From NCBI RefSeq assembly GCF_016101585.1, contig NZ_JACFQG010000001.1, forward strand, positions 124,001 to 188,000: a stretch of DNA of 64,000 bases, written 5' to 3'. This DNA is from Bifidobacterium polysaccharolyticum (GTDB taxonomy: Bacteria; Actinomycetota; Actinomycetes; Actinomycetales; Bifidobacteriaceae). Under the pieces are notes generated by a model that saw only the letters and a list, made by a program, of their open reading frames with translations, made no database searches and was not told the DNA's origin. Below are positions 19,927-28,324 of the stretch, one piece after another (positions within the stretch are counted from its first letter, which is position 1; each line of letters begins with the position of its first letter). A program made the translations under genes and the position numbers.

Positions 19927-20955
19927 ATGAGCGATACCGTGGAATGGTTCAAGCAAGCCAAGTATGGAATGATGATTCACTGGGGTCTCTATTCGCTCCT
20001 GGGAGGGGAGTACCAGGGAAAGTCGTCAAGCAACTACGCGGAGTGGATCCAATCCAAGCTCCAGATTCCCAACAAGGAGTACGAACGCCTGACCCAGGCC
20101 TTCAATCCCATCTACTTCGATGCCGATGCCATAGTCGATCTTGCAAAGCGTTGCGGCATGCAGTATCTGGTCGTCACAGCAAAGCACCACGACGGCTTCG
20201 CCATGTACCGATCCCTGGTAGATGCTTACAACGTCTATGACGCGACACCATTTCACCGGGATGTAATTGGCGAGTTGTCCCTGGCCTGCCGCAAGGCTGG
20301 CCTGCGATTTGGCCTTTACTATTCTCAAGATTTGGATTGGCATGAACCGGATGGCGGCGGATACCTCTCAAATGACATCGAGACGGCGGGCACCACCTGG
20401 GACAACAGCTGGGACTTTGTGGGGGAGAAGAACTACGACCGTGCGTTCAAGCACAAGATCATGCCGCAGATCGAAGAGATCATGAGCAACTACGGGGAAA
20501 TATCGGTCGCCTGGTTCGACATGCCCATGACTCTCAGCGACGAGCAGAGCCAGACCATCTACGATACGGTCAAGCGCCTGCAGCCCGACTGCCTGATTAA
20601 TTCCAGACTGGGCAACGGTCGCTACGACTATGTTTCGTTGGGAGACAACGAGATTCCTGAGGATTCGGATGCCAGCGCCAAGGCCTCCTCGGAGGAAGAT
20701 GTCGATTACAATTCCGTCGAAGGATTCAAACCCTCAAAGCTCGGCCTTTATGAGACCGCCGGAACCATCAACGATTCCTGGGGATTCTCCTACCATGACC
20801 AGAACTGGAAGAGCCCGAAGACCATTCACGATTACAAGGCCCATCTGAACAAGTACGGCATCAACTACCTGCTCAATGTTGGTCTGGATGGACTGGGACG
20901 AGTCCCCATGGCGGCAGAGCAGGCGCTCCTAGGAGCTCAAGCTCTAGAGGTTTGA
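19927..20955 (+). CDS. GH29 alpha-L-fucosidase
   Basis: 342 residues. Retaining glycosidase that releases alpha-linked L-fucose. Typical GH29 elements: KYGMMIHWGLYSLLGGEYQG near the N-terminus, the paired-His motif VVTAKHHDGFAMY (about residue 83), LRFGLYYSQDLDW, and the nucleophile region VAWFDMPM with Asp about 198. The protein consists of the TIM-barrel catalytic domain only; the C-terminal beta-sandwich present in many GH29 enzymes is missing. No signal peptide, so it should act intracellularly on imported fucosylated oligosaccharides. The start ATG follows AACAGAGGTAAGT. A hairpin with a T6 tail ends the transcript. No transporter is adjacent. Confidence 0.92.
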   Translation: MSDTVEWFKQAKYGMMIHWGLYSLLGGEYQGKSSSNYAEWIQSKLQIPNKEYERLTQAFNPIYFDADAIVDLAKRCGMQYLVVTAKHHDGFAMYRSLVDAYNVYDATPFHRDVIGELSLACRKAGLRFGLYYSQDLDWHEPDGGGYLSNDIETAGTTWDNSWDFVGEKNYDRAFKHKIMPQIEEIMSNYGEISVAWFDMPMTLSDEQSQTIYDTVKRLQPDCLINSRLGNGRYDYVSLGDNEIPEDSDASAKASSEEDVDYNSVEGFKPSKLGLYETAGTINDSWGFSYHDQNWKSPKTIHDYKAHLNKYGINYLLNVGLDGLGRVPMAAEQALLGAQALEV

Positions 20956-22026: not shown

Positions 22027-22544
22027 TTCCTCACCCCTTTTGGCCGGCACAACCAAGAATTCTGTCTCTTGCCTGTCTTTGAGGCAAAGTATATGACAGA
22101 GATCTCAATGCAGGGACGCAACAGTCGGATAAGGCGAATCTCGCGTCCGAGTTTGGTAGTGCGACACAACTTTGACAAGACTTTTACCCGAATTCGTTCT
22201 TGCCGAGCATAGCTTACAGACCGTAGTGAAGAGATAGGACCCAGGATGCAAACGACCAATGCTTCGGTACGGGATGAGCTTGTATGGGAAGGGGTATCTG
22301 AATGTGTTGATTACGGATTCGCAGGCTGCGGCTTGCGAGAGACTCCCAAGGGAGCCTTAAGATAAATCTCTGAAATTTCGAGATTAGTCTGGTCTGTCTT
22401 GTCATAGGCACGTTTATTTTGGATGCTTATCGCGTCCGCAAAATGCAAGCGTCTGGTCAAATAATGGTCGCGTTTATAAGATTGCTGGAACTTCGCTGTA
22501 CGCTTACTCTAATGCTGATTGTAGATTCCGCAGGAGGTTTCAGC
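22027..22544. other. Intergenic region upstream of the leader ORF
   Basis: About 520 bp between the divergent SDR and the aminotransferase leader. Both promoters must lie here; the aminotransferase promoter candidate is listed separately. No other gene is supported; a 39-codon frame at 22246 was seen but has no family support. Confidence 0.5.
22482..22510 (+). promoter_or_regulatory. Candidate sigma-70-type promoter of the aminotransferase operon
   Basis: TTGCTG (-35, 22482-22487) and TACTCT (-10, 22505-22510) with a 17-bp spacer. Transcription would start about 20 bp before the Shine-Dalgarno of the leader ORF. Confidence 0.45.
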
Positions 22545-22592
22545 ATGCAGGGCACACGATTTACCTATTGGTGGCACGGATTCGATCTGTGA
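22545..22592 (+). CDS. Aromatic-rich leader peptide (15 codons)
   Basis: A perfect AGGAGG lies 7 nt before ATG 22545, opening a 15-codon frame MQGTRFTYWWHGFDL that ends at TGA 22590-22592. It contains Phe, Tyr, tandem Trp (codons 9-10), His and Phe. It is 149 nt upstream of an aminotransferase of the aromatic type. Known: tandem-Trp leader peptides regulate trp genes in other actinobacteria by attenuation (Streptomyces and Corynebacterium trpL). Inference: ribosome stalling at the aromatic codons senses charged tRNA-Trp/Tyr/Phe and controls the downstream aminotransferase-dehydrogenase operon. Confidence 0.6.
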   Translation: MQGTRFTYWWHGFDL

Positions 22593-22693
22593 CGCCCGGT
22601 GCCTTGTAGGAACGGTTGCACGGATCGGAACCCACCGGCCCTGCAGTCGTCGACAGCATTTCCCGTGCATCGTCACCGCATAGTCGGTAGGGC
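22573..22693 (+). promoter_or_regulatory. Candidate attenuator with mutually exclusive stems
   Basis: Three possible pairings follow the Trp codons. GGCAC (22573-22577, overlapping the second Trp codon) pairs with GTGCC (22599-22603). CCGGTG (22596-22601) pairs with CACCGG (22633-22638). GCCCT (22638-22642) pairs with AGGGC (22689-22693). The first two share bases and exclude each other, the layout expected for attenuation. A final stem with a U-run was not found, so control could be translational or rho-dependent. Confidence 0.4.
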
Positions 22694-22741
22694 AGTACCA
22701 GCGACAATGGTTGTAGTAACCGCATGGGAAAGGACAAGCCA

Positions 22742-23911
22742 ATGACATTGGCGGATCATATGAATGCCAGGGTCAAAGCTCTGGCGCCGAGCGACATACT
22801 CGAATTCAACAAGGAGATCGCCGGAATAGACGGCATCGTGAAGCTGACCCTGGGGGAGCCTGACTTCTTCACCCCCGAGCATGTCAAGCAGGCGGGCATC
22901 GAGGCCATTCAAAACAATTACAGTCATTACACCGAGAGCCGCGGTATGCCCAGTCTGCGTAAGGCAGCTGCCGACTATCTTCAGGCCAAGTACGGGCTGG
23001 ACTACGACCCTGACAGCCAGATTGTGATTACGGCCGGTGCCACCGGGGGCATCTTCTCGGGCCTTACCGCCATGATCAACCCGGGTGATACGGTCATTCT
23101 GCCCACGCCCATCTTCCCGCTTTACATCCCCATCGCCCAGCTGAGCGGCGCCAAAACCGTCTTCGTGGATACCTCCGAGGACGGCTTCATTCTCAAGCCG
23201 GACAAACTGGAGGCCGCCGTCGAAAACAGCGAGGGTCCGGTCAAAGCCCTGGTGCTCAACTATCCCACCAACCCCACCGGCGTGACCTATGCCCGTGAGG
23301 ATCTGGAGGCTCTGGCCCAGGTGGCGCGCAAGCACGGCTTCTTCGTGCTCAGCGATGAAATCTACGCCGAGCTGACCTACCAGGGTACTCACGTGTCCAT
23401 GGGCACTATCCTGCCCGAGCAGACAGTCGTTCTTGGCGGGGTTTCCAAGTCCCATGCCATGACTGGATGGCGTGTCGGCATCGCAGCTGGCCCCGCCGAC
23501 GTTATTGATCAGATCAGCAAGGTTAACGAGTTCACTATTACCTCGGTGACCACCAACGCCCAGTATGCGGCCCAGGAGGCTCTGACCAAGGGTATGAATG
23601 ACACGGACCCGATGCGCGAAGCATATCGCAAGCGGCGGGACTATCTGGTCAAGGCCCTGCCCGAGGTCGGTCTGGATGTCATTGATCCCAAGGGCGCCTT
23701 CTATATCTTCGCCCGGCTGCCCGAGGGCATGCGCGACAGCTGGAGCTTCGTCTATGACCTGGCTCGCAAGGCCAAGGTGGCGGTAATCCCCGGGGCAAGC
23801 TTTGGGCCCGGGGGTGAGGGCTACGTCCGCATCTCCTACGCGGCTTCCATGGAGGACCTGCACACCGCCGTGGAGCGGATCGGCGACTATATGCGTCAGA
23901 ATCGCGGATGA
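22742..23911 (+). CDS. PLP-dependent aminotransferase, aromatic/PatA-AraT type
   Basis: 389 residues, fold type I, class I/II. Seen: LTLGEPDFFTPEHV near the N-terminus, YTESRGMPSLRKAAADYL, the cofactor-contacting NYPTNPTGVTY, DEIYAELTY, the Schiff-base Lys in GGVSKSHAMTGWRVG, and the carboxylate-binding Arg in YVRISYA. This set matches aromatic/branched aminotransferases of lactic acid bacteria (AraT, PatA), where substrate choice is hard to predict. ATG 22742 has AAAGGA at 7 nt and was preferred to ATG 22724. The D-2-hydroxyacid dehydrogenase follows 68 bp downstream, and an aromatic leader ORF precedes it; both point to aromatic amino acids as substrates. Confidence 0.88.
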   Translation: MTLADHMNARVKALAPSDILEFNKEIAGIDGIVKLTLGEPDFFTPEHVKQAGIEAIQNNYSHYTESRGMPSLRKAAADYLQAKYGLDYDPDSQIVITAGATGGIFSGLTAMINPGDTVILPTPIFPLYIPIAQLSGAKTVFVDTSEDGFILKPDKLEAAVENSEGPVKALVLNYPTNPTGVTYAREDLEALAQVARKHGFFVLSDEIYAELTYQGTHVSMGTILPEQTVVLGGVSKSHAMTGWRVGIAAGPADVIDQISKVNEFTITSVTTNAQYAAQEALTKGMNDTDPMREAYRKRRDYLVKALPEVGLDVIDPKGAFYIFARLPEGMRDSWSFVYDLARKAKVAVIPGASFGPGGEGYVRISYAASMEDLHTAVERIGDYMRQNRG

Positions 23912-23979
23912 CTCATCTGGCGATTCATCCGACAGCCGGCAAAAATCATCAATGAAGACAGTTACCAAGGACAGGAAAA

Positions 23980-24972
23980 ATGACCAGCATTCTTATGTAT
24001 TCAGTACGTCCCGACGAGCAGGAGGCCATTCAGGCCTGGGCGCAAGCCAATGACATTCAAGTGGATACCACTGACCACGATCTGGGGATGAACACTGTTG
24101 ACATGATCAAGGGATACGACGGAATCGTCATCCAGCAGCACGCGGCCCTGCCCGAGCCTGAGCTCTACCAGCGGCTCAAGGAGTATGGTCTCAAGCAACT
24201 GACCCTGCGAATCACCGGGTATGACATCGTCAACCTGCAGGCCGCTCGGGAGAACGGGTTGGTCGTCACCAACGTACCTGCCTACTCGCCCCGGTCGGTC
24301 TCCGAACTGGTTCTGGCCCAGGTCATGCGTCTGGTTCGGCATCTGGGGGAGGCCAGCGCTCGCGAGGCCAAGGATGACTATACCTGGGATGGACTTCAGG
24401 CCCATGAGATCCACAACCTGACCGTGGGGATCATCGGAGCAGGCAAAATCGGATCGGCCGTGGCCAGAATCTTCAGGGCCCTGGGCTCCACCGTCATCGC
24501 CAACGATCCGGTCCACCGCCCCGAGCTGGCAGACACCCTGGATTACGTCGATCTGCCCACGCTTTTGAAGCGGGCCGACATCGTCACCGTTCATACGCCG
24601 CTGGACGATACCACCCATCATCTGATCAATGCCCAGGCACTGGATGCCATGAAGCCCTCGGCCTTCCTGATCAACGCCGCCCGCGGCCCCATTGTGGACA
24701 CCCCGGCCCTGATTGAGGCCCTGCAGACCAAGTCCATCGCTGGTGCCGCCATCGACACCATCGAGGGTGAGGCGGGCATCTTCGAAAAGGATCTGAGCGG
24801 GACCAAGGTCGACAACCAGGCCCTGGAGACCCTCAAGGCCATGCCCAATGTAGAGGTCTCACCACACATCGGCTTCTACACCGATGCTGCCGTGACCGCC
24901 ATGGTAAATATCTCCCTGAATGATGTGAAGACCATTCTGGAGGGCGGCACCAGCGAGCATCAGGTGGACTGA
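23980..24972 (+). CDS. D-2-hydroxyacid dehydrogenase (D-LDH / hydroxyisocaproate dehydrogenase type)
   Basis: 330 residues, NAD-dependent. Rossmann motif GIIGAGKIGSA at about 150, and the catalytic triad in the positions known from lactobacillar D-LDH: Arg235 (NAARGPIVD), Glu264 (DTIEGE) and His296 (SPHIGFYTDAA). Reduces a 2-oxo acid to the D-2-hydroxy acid. Because the preceding gene is an aromatic-type aminotransferase, the likely substrates are phenyl-, 4-hydroxyphenyl- or indole-pyruvate rather than pyruvate, giving D-aryl-lactates; this is inference. The start follows AAGGACAGGAAAA. No strong terminator was seen behind it; an old xpt/guaA relic begins 57 bp later. Confidence 0.9.
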   Translation: MTSILMYSVRPDEQEAIQAWAQANDIQVDTTDHDLGMNTVDMIKGYDGIVIQQHAALPEPELYQRLKEYGLKQLTLRITGYDIVNLQAARENGLVVTNVPAYSPRSVSELVLAQVMRLVRHLGEASAREAKDDYTWDGLQAHEIHNLTVGIIGAGKIGSAVARIFRALGSTVIANDPVHRPELADTLDYVDLPTLLKRADIVTVHTPLDDTTHHLINAQALDAMKPSAFLINAARGPIVDTPALIEALQTKSIAGAAIDTIEGEAGIFEKDLSGTKVDNQALETLKAMPNVEVSPHIGFYTDAAVTAMVNISLNDVKTILEGGTSEHQVD

Positions 24973-25029
24973 TCCATTTTATTGCAGCGACCCGAACCGG
25001 GGCAGACCGACTCAGGCAGGATTCTGAGC

Positions 25030-25186
25030 AAAGGTGTTGATGTCCTGGTCCGGGTACATGCTTTACACGATGGCCAAGGACTTGAGGTTGTAGCCCTCTT
25101 TGCGCAGGGTGCGGCCGCCCTCCTGGAATCCGCTCTCCACGGCGATGTCGATGCTATCAATGAGGACCTTGGTATCGTGGCAGATG
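25030..25186 (-). pseudogene. xpt: Relic of xpt 3' part
   Basis: Aligns over its whole length, without large gaps, to the 3' part of the intact xpt gene at 28952-29112 (same strand), with long identical runs such as the stretch around 25081-25110. It corresponds to roughly the C-terminal 50 residues of xanthine phosphoribosyltransferase. The stop codon region and the N-terminal three quarters are missing. It ends abruptly at about 25186, where guaA-like sequence starts on the other strand. Confidence 0.85.
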
Positions 25187-25427
25187 ATGAGGTACGGGTC
25201 ATCGGCATCAAGCTGGGCTTGCCTGACGAGATTGTCTAGTGTTAGCCTTTCCCCTTCCTGGCTTGGGCATTCGCGTTATTGGCGACATTGCTAAGAAGCG
25301 ACAGTATCTTCTGAGAGAGGCCGATGCCATCGCTCTTGAGAAAATGACCGAGGCCGGTATGGAGGGCATCTAGCAGTCCTTCTGCCCGATGTCCATTCCG
25401 TTGGTGTACAGCGTTGATGAGTACGCG
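25186..25427 (+). pseudogene. guaA: Relic of guaA internal part
   Basis: Aligns to intact guaA at about 16678-16925 (residues 376-458). The opening reads DEVRVIGIKLGLPDEIV, versus [17 protein letters not shown] in GuaA, and the next codon TGG (Trp) has become TAG. Further on, matches include the ADAIA region and the VHSVGV region, with several small indels. It lacks both the amidotransferase and the PP-loop parts, so it is non-functional. Joined head-to-head to the xpt relic. Confidence 0.85.
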
Positions 25428-26593: not shown

Positions 26594-28324
26594 ATGGAAG
26601 TAAGGGAAATGACTAGAAAACTAAATATGACACAGGCTACGATCCGTAACTTTGTCGAAAGTGAACGTTTTCGAATTGATAAGAATATGGGTGCTGATGA
26701 AGCTTTTGAAAGAGTCGTAGCTCAGCAAGTTTTGACTCAGTATCTTCTCGATGATGACGAAGTAACAAGAGGTATGACCGATGGTGGGCTCGATGGCGGT
26801 TACGACGGAATATTTATATTCGTTAACGATACTCTTATGAATGGCGAAGATCCCAAATCTATTTCACTAGATAGCAAAAGCCAAATTGATATTCACCTTA
26901 TACAATCAAAAAATCAAACTCATTTTTCAGAAGCCATTGTTCAAAACTGGAAAGTTTCTTTTCCGAATCTTGTCGAGACAGACCAGCCGGATAAAGACAG
27001 GTACAATCAGGCAGTAATTGATCTCTTTGAACTCATAAGAATTATTTTAGAGCAAACCATAAAAAAGCGACTTCAGGTATCGATTCATTTCTGGGCGGTT
27101 TCTTTAGCTGTGAGAGTTCACCCAAATCTCTTGAAGCAGGCAGAAGAACTAAAGGAGCTTGTAGAATCCATCATCCCTTCCAAGAACACGTCTGTTCATG
27201 TGGATTTTGTAACGGCAAAGAACTTGTTTGAGCTGATTGAGGAAGCTCCCGATGAAACGGTTAGTTTAAAAGGTACAAAGGAACCTCTATGTCCTGATGA
27301 GTCAAGTGCGATATTGACTGTCTTGCTTGGAGATTATTTTTCATTCATCACAGATGAAAAACAGAATCTTAAGAAGTCACTTTTTGAAGCGAATATTCGT
27401 GACTATCAAGGAAAAGTACATGTCAATAAAGCAATTCATGAAACACTCGAGAATAAGTCTGATATTGACTTCTGGTGGCTTAACAACGGAATCACAATTG
27501 TCGCTGATAAAGTGACACGAGATATGGGGAACTCAATTTCCTTGACTAATCCCAGAATTGTAAATGGGCTTCAGACATCCAATGAGATTGCTCAGTATTG
27601 TAAATCGGAAAAGAGCCTAGATGACAACAGAACAGTTCTTATTAAGTGCATCGCTTCCAGTGACCATGCGACCAGGGCTAAAATAATACAGGCAACAAAT
27701 AACCAAACATCGATTCCTCCTGCATTCCTTCATTCGCTTGAGACGATACACTTACAAATAGAAAGATACTTTAGTGATCGACATCTTCAGTATGATCGCC
27801 GGAAGAGCACCGGAAAAAACAACGGCTGGCCTGCAAAGGACATTATTTCTATCTCATTTTTGGGGCAATGTCTTATTTCAACGCTTCTTGGGCAGCCTGA
27901 TTATGCGCGTGCTAGACCAGCACAAATACTTGGTGACGCAAAGAAGTACGCGAGGATTTTTAATGAGCACGTGCCATTGGAAGCCTATTATAGACTAGCG
28001 CGAACAAGCGCTAATATAAAGCAGCTAATTAAAGGTTGCGGGCTGACACGAGGGGAACAAAACGACCTACTATTTCATACGATATATCTTTACTGTGCAA
28101 AGGATGCAGGTTCTTTGAAATTAGATTCGGAAGACCTTGTAAACTTGCATCAGCCTAAAGAGAAAGAATTTAAAGAAGTTGTCAATTTGGCAAAATCAGT
28201 TTATTTGGAAAACGGCGGAAATGCTCAAACTGCTAAAAATGCTTCATTTGTCGTGAAGCTTCAGGAAAGAGCAGCTGATGAGTGGGGACTTAGACAGCAG
28301 GCAGATAACAGGAAGCAAGGTTAA
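26594..28324 (+). CDS. AIPR-family abortive-infection phage-resistance protein
   Basis: 576 residues. The AIPR hallmark is in the middle: FWWLNNGITIVADKV followed by NPRIVNGLQTSNEIAQY (about residues 295-335), preceded by NIRDYQGKVHVNKAIHETL. The N-terminal part carries MTDGGLDGGYDGIFIF and IHLIQSKNQ, a pattern like the D ... QxK catalytic centre of restriction-type PD-(D/E)xK nucleases. Known: AIPR (PF10592) proteins act in phage exclusion. The gene is strikingly AT-rich compared with all neighbours, indicating horizontal gain. ATG 26594 has no good Shine-Dalgarno; ATG 26609 after GTAAGGGAA is an alternative. No methylase or antitoxin partner is adjacent, so it appears to act alone. Confidence 0.85.
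   Translation: MEVREMTRKLNMTQATIRNFVESERFRIDKNMGADEAFERVVAQQVLTQYLLDDDEVTRGMTDGGLDGGYDGIFIFVNDTLMNGEDPKSISLDSKSQIDIHLIQSKNQTHFSEAIVQNWKVSFPNLVETDQPDKDRYNQAVIDLFELIRIILEQTIKKRLQVSIHFWAVSLAVRVHPNLLKQAEELKELVESIIPSKNTSVHVDFVTAKNLFELIEEAPDETVSLKGTKEPLCPDESSAILTVLLGDYFSFITDEKQNLKKSLFEANIRDYQGKVHVNKAIHETLENKSDIDFWWLNNGITIVADKVTRDMGNSISLTNPRIVNGLQTSNEIAQYCKSEKSLDDNRTVLIKCIASSDHATRAKIIQATNNQTSIPPAFLHSLETIHLQIERYFSDRHLQYDRRKSTGKNNGWPAKDIISISFLGQCLISTLLGQPDYARARPAQILGDAKKYARIFNEHVPLEAYYRLARTSANIKQLIKGCGLTRGEQNDLLFHTIYLYCAKDAGSLKLDSEDLVNLHQPKEKEFKEVVNLAKSVYLENGGNAQTAKNASFVVKLQERAADEWGLRQQADNRKQG

Follow-up and report, generated by a model that had tools for sequence, protein, structure and literature searches.

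The window, by which we mean the whole 64,000-nt stretch of Bifidobacterium polysaccharolyticum DNA analysed here, carries a short aromatic leader frame in front of an operon for an AraT-type aminotransferase and a D-2-hydroxyacid dehydrogenase. This leader is probably a ribosome-mediated attenuator that senses the charging of Trp and Tyr tRNAs (in relatives also of Phe tRNA), turns the operon on in starvation, derives from Lactobacillaceae and acts on translation in the window. Uncharged aromatic tRNAs would stall the ribosome on the aromatic codons and helix 1:2 would form; this helix would prevent a downstream block, which is a terminator in the relatives and presumably Shine-Dalgarno sequestration in the window lineage, and AraT and the dehydrogenase would be made. 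When aromatics are sufficient, the ribosome would reach the stop codon and cover segment 1, and helix 2:3 and the block would form. The module probably arrived from Lactobacillaceae with the operon, after which the window lineage would have lost the terminator and become translational. For the operon, the most likely role is to acquire aromatic amino acids by transamination of arylpyruvates, possibly fed by D-aryl-lactates.

Leader, operon and predicted switch in the window

The features of the element are as follows.

22532..22537, + strand: leader Shine-Dalgarno AGGAGG, read from the sequence, 7 nt before the ATG at 22545
22545..22592, + strand: leader ORF MQGTRFTYWWHGFDL, 15 codons, stop TGA at 22590-22592; from sequence, conservation and relatives
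22581..22591, + strand: segment 1, TTCGATCTGTG, overlapping the leader stop codon; partner 22619-22629
22612..22629, + strand: segment 2, with the alternatives 22619-22629 with segment 1 or 22612-22620 with 22642-22650 of segment 3
22631..22650, + strand: segment 3; 22631-22639:22683-22692 (one bulge) when 1:2 forms, otherwise 22642-22650 with segment 2; predicted folds
22659..22668, + strand: anti-Shine-Dalgarno arm, TTTCCCGTGC; partner 22722-22731; predicted folds
22683..22692, + strand: GTCGGTAGGG, open-state partner of 22631-22639; predicted fold
22722..22734, + strand: GCATGGGAAAGGA, the sequestered arm (22722-22731) with the AraT Shine-Dalgarno AAAGGA (22729-22734); sequence and predicted folds
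22742..23911, + strand: AraT-type pyridoxal-phosphate aminotransferase (PF00155), ATG at 22742
23980..24972, + strand: D-2-hydroxyacid dehydrogenase (PF02826, PF00389); best PDB match, and closest solved relative, 4xkj

Much of this layout had been described in an earlier note made from the letters of the DNA: the perfect AGGAGG 7 nt before a 15-codon aromatic frame, the overlapping exclusive stems, the aminotransferase and dehydrogenase genes downstream and a target outside the usual trp genes are all present. The whole element extends to the AraT start at 22742, beyond the 22693 end of the stretch originally marked. The best NCBIfam match of AraT is PRK07309, below the cut-off of that model, and its best PDB matches by sequence are 4my5 and the aromatic aminotransferase 1dju; the nearest named records, from Bifidobacterium mizhiense and Bifidobacterium sp. 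7101, are 97% identical. The predicted stems 22581-22591:22619-22629 and 22612-22620:22642-22650 overlap and exclude each other, and the first overlaps the leader end, as in the trpL type. The intrinsic terminator that this type has between leader and first gene is absent from the window, and the earlier note had likewise found no clear U-rich one; on the + strand of 22300-25300, a consensus scan detects no terminator and no sigma-70-type promoter. Rfam scans at the gathering threshold give no T-box match in the window and 12 related loci, and the sole Rfam match in the window is a tRNA located elsewhere. A T-box or other known RNA family was rejected for the leader on these negative scans.

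Conservation was measured in 13 genomes of the window clade (its own and 12 others, out of 59 searched; region identity 94–100%), which were oriented and then aligned. The leader ORF is variable at 1 of 48 sites, by a synonymous change, and its Shine-Dalgarno and spacer at 0 of 13 positions. From the leader end to the AraT ATG, 16 of 149 positions vary, and 22724-22741 is invariant; the comparison rates are 104 of 183 for AraT 4-fold sites and 129 of 139 far upstream. The leader is nearly invariant, and leader-to-ATG variability is about five times below that of the 4-fold sites. These rates indicate strong constraint on the element, the non-coding part included, and from the conservation we infer that the leader is translated. 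The closing helix 22659-22668:22722-22731 is paired in 13/13 genomes, one of which (L017) has A-U instead of G-U and has also lost one pair of the open-state helix 22631-22639:22683-22692. This Shine-Dalgarno helix shows no covariation in the window clade, which is too uniform to show any.

The RNA downstream of a ribosome placed by its A-site codon was folded, and the cost of opening is given in kcal/mol. With Trp9 in the A site, 22581-22591:22619-22629 is predicted to form together with 22631-22639:22683-22692 (one bulge); in the fold as printed, the first base of the former helix is covered. Opening the region from Shine-Dalgarno to ATG is predicted to cost 4.6 kcal/mol at Trp9 and 3.8 kcal/mol at Trp10. 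With the stop codon in the A site, 22612-22620:22642-22650 and 22659-22668:22722-22731 are predicted to form, the cost is 8.7 kcal/mol and the Shine-Dalgarno is closed. The predicted cost is intermediate without a ribosome (5.8 kcal/mol), and a stall at Phe6 (7.9 kcal/mol) would not open the Shine-Dalgarno. For the Shine-Dalgarno core alone the values are 3.4 at Trp9, 6.4 at Trp10 and 8.8 at the stop, so that the effect at Trp10 is smaller. The cost stays low while the ribosome edge lies between about -10 and +3, counted from the stop codon, a like trend is seen in 6 near-identical relatives with the same measure, and the cost difference of the window is reached by 3 of 300 dinucleotide shuffles of the non-coding part. 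The position of the leader ribosome is predicted, then, to change accessibility of the downstream Shine-Dalgarno, a Trp stall opening it and the stop codon closing it. We read the window lineage as a translational version in which the logic is kept (starved = on) and mainly Trp and Tyr are sensed. The mode of action had been left open in the earlier note; relatives carry intrinsic terminators, and sequestration of the Shine-Dalgarno is the most likely mode in the window lineage. Pairing by eye had suggested a Shine-Dalgarno helix of inverted logic (starved = off); this was rejected, as folding downstream of the ribosome gives the opposite result.

Related leaders, their stems and their terminators

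AraT matches at E up to 1e-120 are found in 19 of 189 genomes of the family, all in the genus of the window. Two diverged genomes with AraT followed by the dehydrogenase, G006 (AraT 67% identical) and G023 (71%), have leaders ending RFSYWWRRLDL and RFSYWWRRLIL, and G017 (65%, no dehydrogenase adjoining) has the leader RFSYWQSRRDL. All three show a GC-rich hairpin followed by T-rich sequence before AraT. G002 (AraT 76% identical) keeps the dehydrogenase; its frame, MLQDWRFRYRLH, is well placed, but the WW pair is lost. No terminator with a U run is seen before its AraT, and its frame gives no comparable switch on folding. G007 and G021 carry AraT without dehydrogenase and without leader. Conservation of the YWW codons in related Bifidobacterium had been suggested as a check, and loss of aromatic codons where the operon is kept as a sign against the idea. 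The codons are kept in the 13 window-clade genomes, G006 and G023, and such a loss is found once, in G002.

AraT has relatives in Lactobacillaceae and Sporolactobacillus; at E up to 1e-136 they number 134 among 397 genomes of Lactobacillaceae, and 60 further stretches were taken in for leader comparison. In front of the same operon, Lactobacillaceae have leaders like QLNSCRYYFWFF, and the overlapping stems recur there. Other examples are QLNSCRYYFWFFQI in Lentilactobacillus, TSFYFWYFR in Lactiplantibacillus, NNFYYYFGFFR in Sporolactobacillus and LNSFYYFWFFHECL in Liquorilactobacillus. Leaders were counted with identical AraT proteins merged, within 900 nt upstream and with at least 4 aromatics in the last 14 residues. 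Among the resulting 189 loci with different AraT, 86 have both leader and dehydrogenase, 7 the dehydrogenase only, 12 the leader only and 84 neither; an aromatic leader thus precedes AraT in 86/93 loci with the dehydrogenase versus 12/96 without it, in a set of related, not independent, loci for which the Fisher value is not usable as a probability. The same search on the opposite strand finds a leader in 2 of the 93 dehydrogenase-bearing loci. This count replaces a looser table (94/9/9/91), which held duplicates and had a 480-nt upstream limit. Some of the 12 leader-only rows look like chance frames (L057, L107, L109), and one locus counted as dehydrogenase without leader (L060) has a leader under the looser rule, with too few aromatics. 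Streptococcus, Enterococcus and paralogous AraT loci without dehydrogenase have no leader, save a few chance-looking frames. The last 14 residues of 69 distinct leaders are 23% Phe, 14% Tyr and 7% Trp. A conserved arrest peptide at a fixed position was rejected, as the aromatic cluster differs between genera.

Many relatives share a chain of pairings. At the leader stop lies segment 1 (TGATCTGTG), whose partner is segment 2 (CACAGATCA). Segment 2 can instead bind segment 3 (CCGCACAG:CTGTGCGG), and segment 3 in turn can bind segment 4 (ATTGACTG:CAGTCAAT), which forms the 5' arm of the terminator; segment 5 completes the terminator 4:5, with which the 3:4 pairing competes. Covariation was measured in a 35-row alignment chosen from 103 leader loci (L158 was dropped, its leader stop being lost). 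Helix 2:3 is paired in 98.6% of cells, has double changes in 4 of 8 pairs (25 cells) and is destroyed by sliding the partners; shuffles are equally high in 0, 1, 0, 5 and 0 of 500 on five measures, which ignore relatedness. The core of helix 1:2 is paired in 96.7% of cells with a double change in 1 of 8 pairs (2 cells), and 5–80 of 500 shuffles are equally high, so that its covariation is small. Liquorilactobacillus, outside the 35-row set, makes helix 1:2 of different letters (GTGTTTGTA:TGCAAACAC). The stem covariation sought in the earlier note is therefore found in part, helix 2:3 being compensated in the relatives, while helix 1:2 is nearly invariant and the window clade too uniform. The GATCTGT end (Asp-Leu-stop) common to several Bifidobacterium leaders is RNA segment 1, and its sharing is therefore explained as conservation of RNA, not of peptide.

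Outside the window clade (L015-L027, L045, L046), 88 leader loci were examined, and 85 of them, G006, G017 and G023 included, have a terminator-like hairpin; L049, L149 and L153 have none. Folded at equilibrium, whole leaders form the terminator almost wherever the ribosome is placed; this result is uninformative on direction, and any switch in these loci must therefore be kinetic. With transcripts that end at the terminator loop, aromatic-codon stalls block the 5' arm of the terminator more than a ribosome at the stop does in 37 of the 85 terminator loci (duplicate genomes included), and the reverse holds in 4; the measure differs by at most 0.1 in the other 44, among them most Lactiplantibacillus-type loci and G023. 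Classical logic, with read-through on starvation, is favoured, not proven, for the terminator loci by this model. Four Lactobacillaceae loci (L140, L141, L147 and L178) have, by eye, long inverted-repeat-rich insertions between attenuator and AraT.

Origin, further targets and physiology

The AraT tree was computed from 130 of 203 rows; the 73 left out are near-duplicates, thinned Streptococcus rows, ten distant Bifidobacterium paralogs (L035-L044) and short proteins. In this tree the seven close proteins from Bifidobacterium group together (SH-aLRT 97), with a Lactobacillaceae group, L169-L171 (G263, G345, G460; SH-aLRT 99), as their sister. Both lie inside a Lactobacillaceae clade, with SH-aLRT 97 at the 52-row fork and only 86 at the intervening fork. 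The L169-L171 leaders end FYFWFFRRDL, sharing the RRDL end with the G017 leader, and at the nucleotide level their alignment with the elements of G006, G017 and G023 extends through the terminator. Horizontal transfer of operon and attenuator from Lactobacillaceae to Bifidobacterium is the simplest reading of the tree, and with the shared leaders and stems the attenuator therefore appears to have crossed phyla together with the operon. A covariance model built from 35 sequences, four of them from Bifidobacterium, matches upstream of AraT at E below 1e-3 in 17 of 27 genomes of the genus. In Lactobacillaceae it matches 102 of 397 genomes (E up to 0.01), many at training loci and the weak end partly by chance. 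Among 296 genomes from the class of the window, searched with strict filters, the own genome alone matches at E up to 0.001. The comparison drawn in the earlier note with trp leaders of Streptomyces and Corynebacterium is not borne out by this distribution, the relatives being in Lactobacillaceae.

We inspected 20 further matches of the covariance model. L262, L268 and L269 are again AraT-dehydrogenase loci, and L276, L277 and L281 look like chance. A PTS_EIIC_2 membrane protein with an aromatic leader is Pfam-checked in L263 and L273, the latter in the order leader, dehydrogenase, membrane protein. L264-L267 have an N-terminal sequence like this protein (the aromatic leader in L264 and L265 being read by eye), L275 has a membrane protein that resembles the set, and L051, L059 and L066 have a like protein, by N-terminal sequence, behind AraT or the dehydrogenase. 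This membrane protein is a candidate importer of aromatic compounds. L278-L280, whose AraT groups with Secundilactobacillus, have a leader such as NRQLNRFSYYWSM before genes for a shikimate dehydrogenase, a DAHP synthase and an aroB-like protein (the families were checked in L278; the aroB-like frame is partial and weakly matched). In L270 the leader MIAAMTTQLNISNPEFWFFSEW precedes a weak, below-cut-off prephenate dehydratase match. The shikimate genes and PTS_EIIC_2 proteins under related elements suggest a response to aromatic shortage, not aryl-lactate formation driven by plenty.

Two observations stand beside these. L274 (Lactobacillaceae G583, contig 8, 28400-30970) has the leader MMQNINVNIISSSSRSTTAFV, with four consecutive Ser codons by eye, before serC and a serA-like gene; the RNA scaffold has apparently been retargeted to serine there. 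L271 and L272 have in common a frame with the end SWQVWYIS (about 60-330, oriented locus). Behind it come a protein for which L271 gives no Pfam match and one whose matches to M20-type peptidases stay below the cut-off; this frame may be another leader or chance.

The operon dehydrogenase of S. inulinus (L065) is identical in sequence to 4xkj, the enzyme DLDH744. As described in the accessible part of its report, DLDH744 makes D-phenyllactate as sole product from phenylpyruvate and also has glutamate dehydrogenase activity (PMC4580590). Among 20 chosen genomes with operon or leader, 10 have prephenate dehydratase and 16 chorismate synthase. Neither is found in G023, G460, G258 and G244 (completeness is known for G023 only, 99%), and in these four a part of the operon in de novo Phe synthesis is therefore not expected. 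The own genome has both enzymes, so the operon may there also carry out the last transamination of biosynthesis. The role that we prefer, unproven as it is, is salvage of aromatic amino acids from arylpyruvates or D-aryl-lactates. The earlier note had called the target catabolic or transaminating; the transaminating part stands, and a simply catabolic role is at odds with the shikimate-pathway genes behind related elements. Its proposal that aromatic supply sets aryl-lactate formation is likewise disfavoured, as pairing geometry and folding favour expression on shortage.

Aryl-lactates (phenyllactate, hydroxyphenyllactate and indolelactate) of bifidobacteria and lactobacilli act on competitors and host receptors. 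A switch on aromatic tRNA charging would predict when their genes are on, namely in shortage, and this logic suggests that the native job of the operon is acquisition of aromatic amino acids. A broader reading, which we offer tentatively and at somewhat less than even chance, is that this unnamed leader-attenuator family controls an aromatic-starvation regulon of Lactobacillaceae (AraT/dehydrogenase salvage, possible import by PTS_EIIC_2, shikimate genes), and that the attenuator moved with the operon to Bifidobacterium and changed there from terminating to translation-blocking with the logic kept. If so, phenyllactate and indolelactate formation would be a side effect of salvage run backwards. 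The element would also be a traceable natural case in which an attenuator crossed phyla and its output seemingly went from transcription to translation with the sensor kept, an evolution testable in growable strains.

Alternatives and known systems

Whether the window leader still senses anything is the point of one rival reading, a decayed remnant or plain translated uORF that lost sensing along with the terminator. The missing terminator, the degenerate, switchless leader of sister genome G002 and a window switch for which folding is the one line of evidence are compatible with it. We consider it unlikely, as the leader is nearly invariant in 13 genomes, variability up to the ATG is far below that of 4-fold sites, and the predicted switching is larger than in 297 of 300 shuffles. 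Quite improbable in our view is an inducible nascent-peptide arrest of TnaC type, with free aromatics stalling the ribosome and the operon on in plenty (catabolic, aryl-lactate formation). Here the aromatics vary freely across the 69 distinct leaders of dehydrogenase-bearing loci (RYYFWFF, SFYFWYF, NFYYYFGFF, YYYFYFF), 7 of which have no Trp; the common GATCTGT end coincides with RNA segment 1, folding predicts that the Shine-Dalgarno is closed, not opened, once the ribosome is at the stop, and shikimate-pathway genes lie behind related elements. The whole peptide is invariant in the window clade, as arrest would require, but invariance there cannot discriminate. A transaminase with a lactate dehydrogenase is the route from Phe to phenyllactate described for lactic acid bacteria in the part of PMC9618312 available, and the production of D-phenyllactate by the homologous S. 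inulinus enzyme (PMC4580590, in part) fits as well. Finally, the window leader might act on transcription, with Rho-dependent termination once it is translated to the stop. The predicted Shine-Dalgarno helix would already supply a block, and we consider this mode very improbable, even though the window has no intrinsic terminator and the accessible text of PMC1262725 weakly suggests such a mode for terminator-less Cys leaders of Mycobacterium.

The ribosome-mediated attenuator that we prefer belongs to a known mechanism class; its target, taxonomic spread, inter-phylum transfer and change of mode appear new within the literature searched. Ribosome-mediated transcription attenuators of trpL/pheL type are known from Enterobacteria. 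Shared with them are the short leader ORF, a cluster of codons for the amino acid that is sensed, exclusive stems in a chain and the terminator (here in the relatives of the window). Unlike them, the present family targets AraT and a D-2-hydroxyacid dehydrogenase, has mixed Phe/Tyr/Trp codons and occurs in Lactobacillaceae and Bifidobacterium, and the window lineage is without terminator. Attenuators of ermC type act on translation by Shine-Dalgarno sequestration with a drug as signal; ribosome position on the leader is likewise predicted here to open or close the binding site of the next gene, but the predicted signal is aminoacyl-tRNA supply and the element derives from a terminator type. 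TnaC, the leader of E. coli tryptophanase, also contains a Trp codon, and the gene behind it likewise acts on aromatic amino acids, whereas the present family has no conserved arrest motif and the predicted response is opposite.

The statements that follow refer to the accessible parts of the papers cited. Trp operons of Corynebacterium and Streptomyces carry ribosome-mediated attenuators (PMC1262725). Seliverstov et al. 2005 describe trp, cys, ilv and leu elements in Actinobacteria and no conserved structures before phenylalanine and tyrosine operons (PMC1262725); their trp attenuators precede trp biosynthesis or trpS genes, unlike the window element with AraT and the D-2-hydroxyacid dehydrogenase. 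The His leader before hisS paralogs in bacilli, reported by Naville and Gautheret 2010 (PMC2965389), is by its description likewise a regular Firmicutes leader-peptide attenuator, with a different amino acid and different targets. The T-box survey PMC2494555 mentions no such leader in the part available. No report of an aromatic leader before such aryl-lactate genes was found in the literature searched, a scope with most subscription papers outside it.

The surroundings of the operon may be noted. Downstream, at window 26594-28324, lies a gene with an AIPR domain (PF10592), a domain often linked to phage defence. Upstream of the leader, at window 19927-20955, is an alpha-L-fucosidase-like frame, named by eye, and a homologous-looking frame likewise lies upstream of the leader in G006 (L014).
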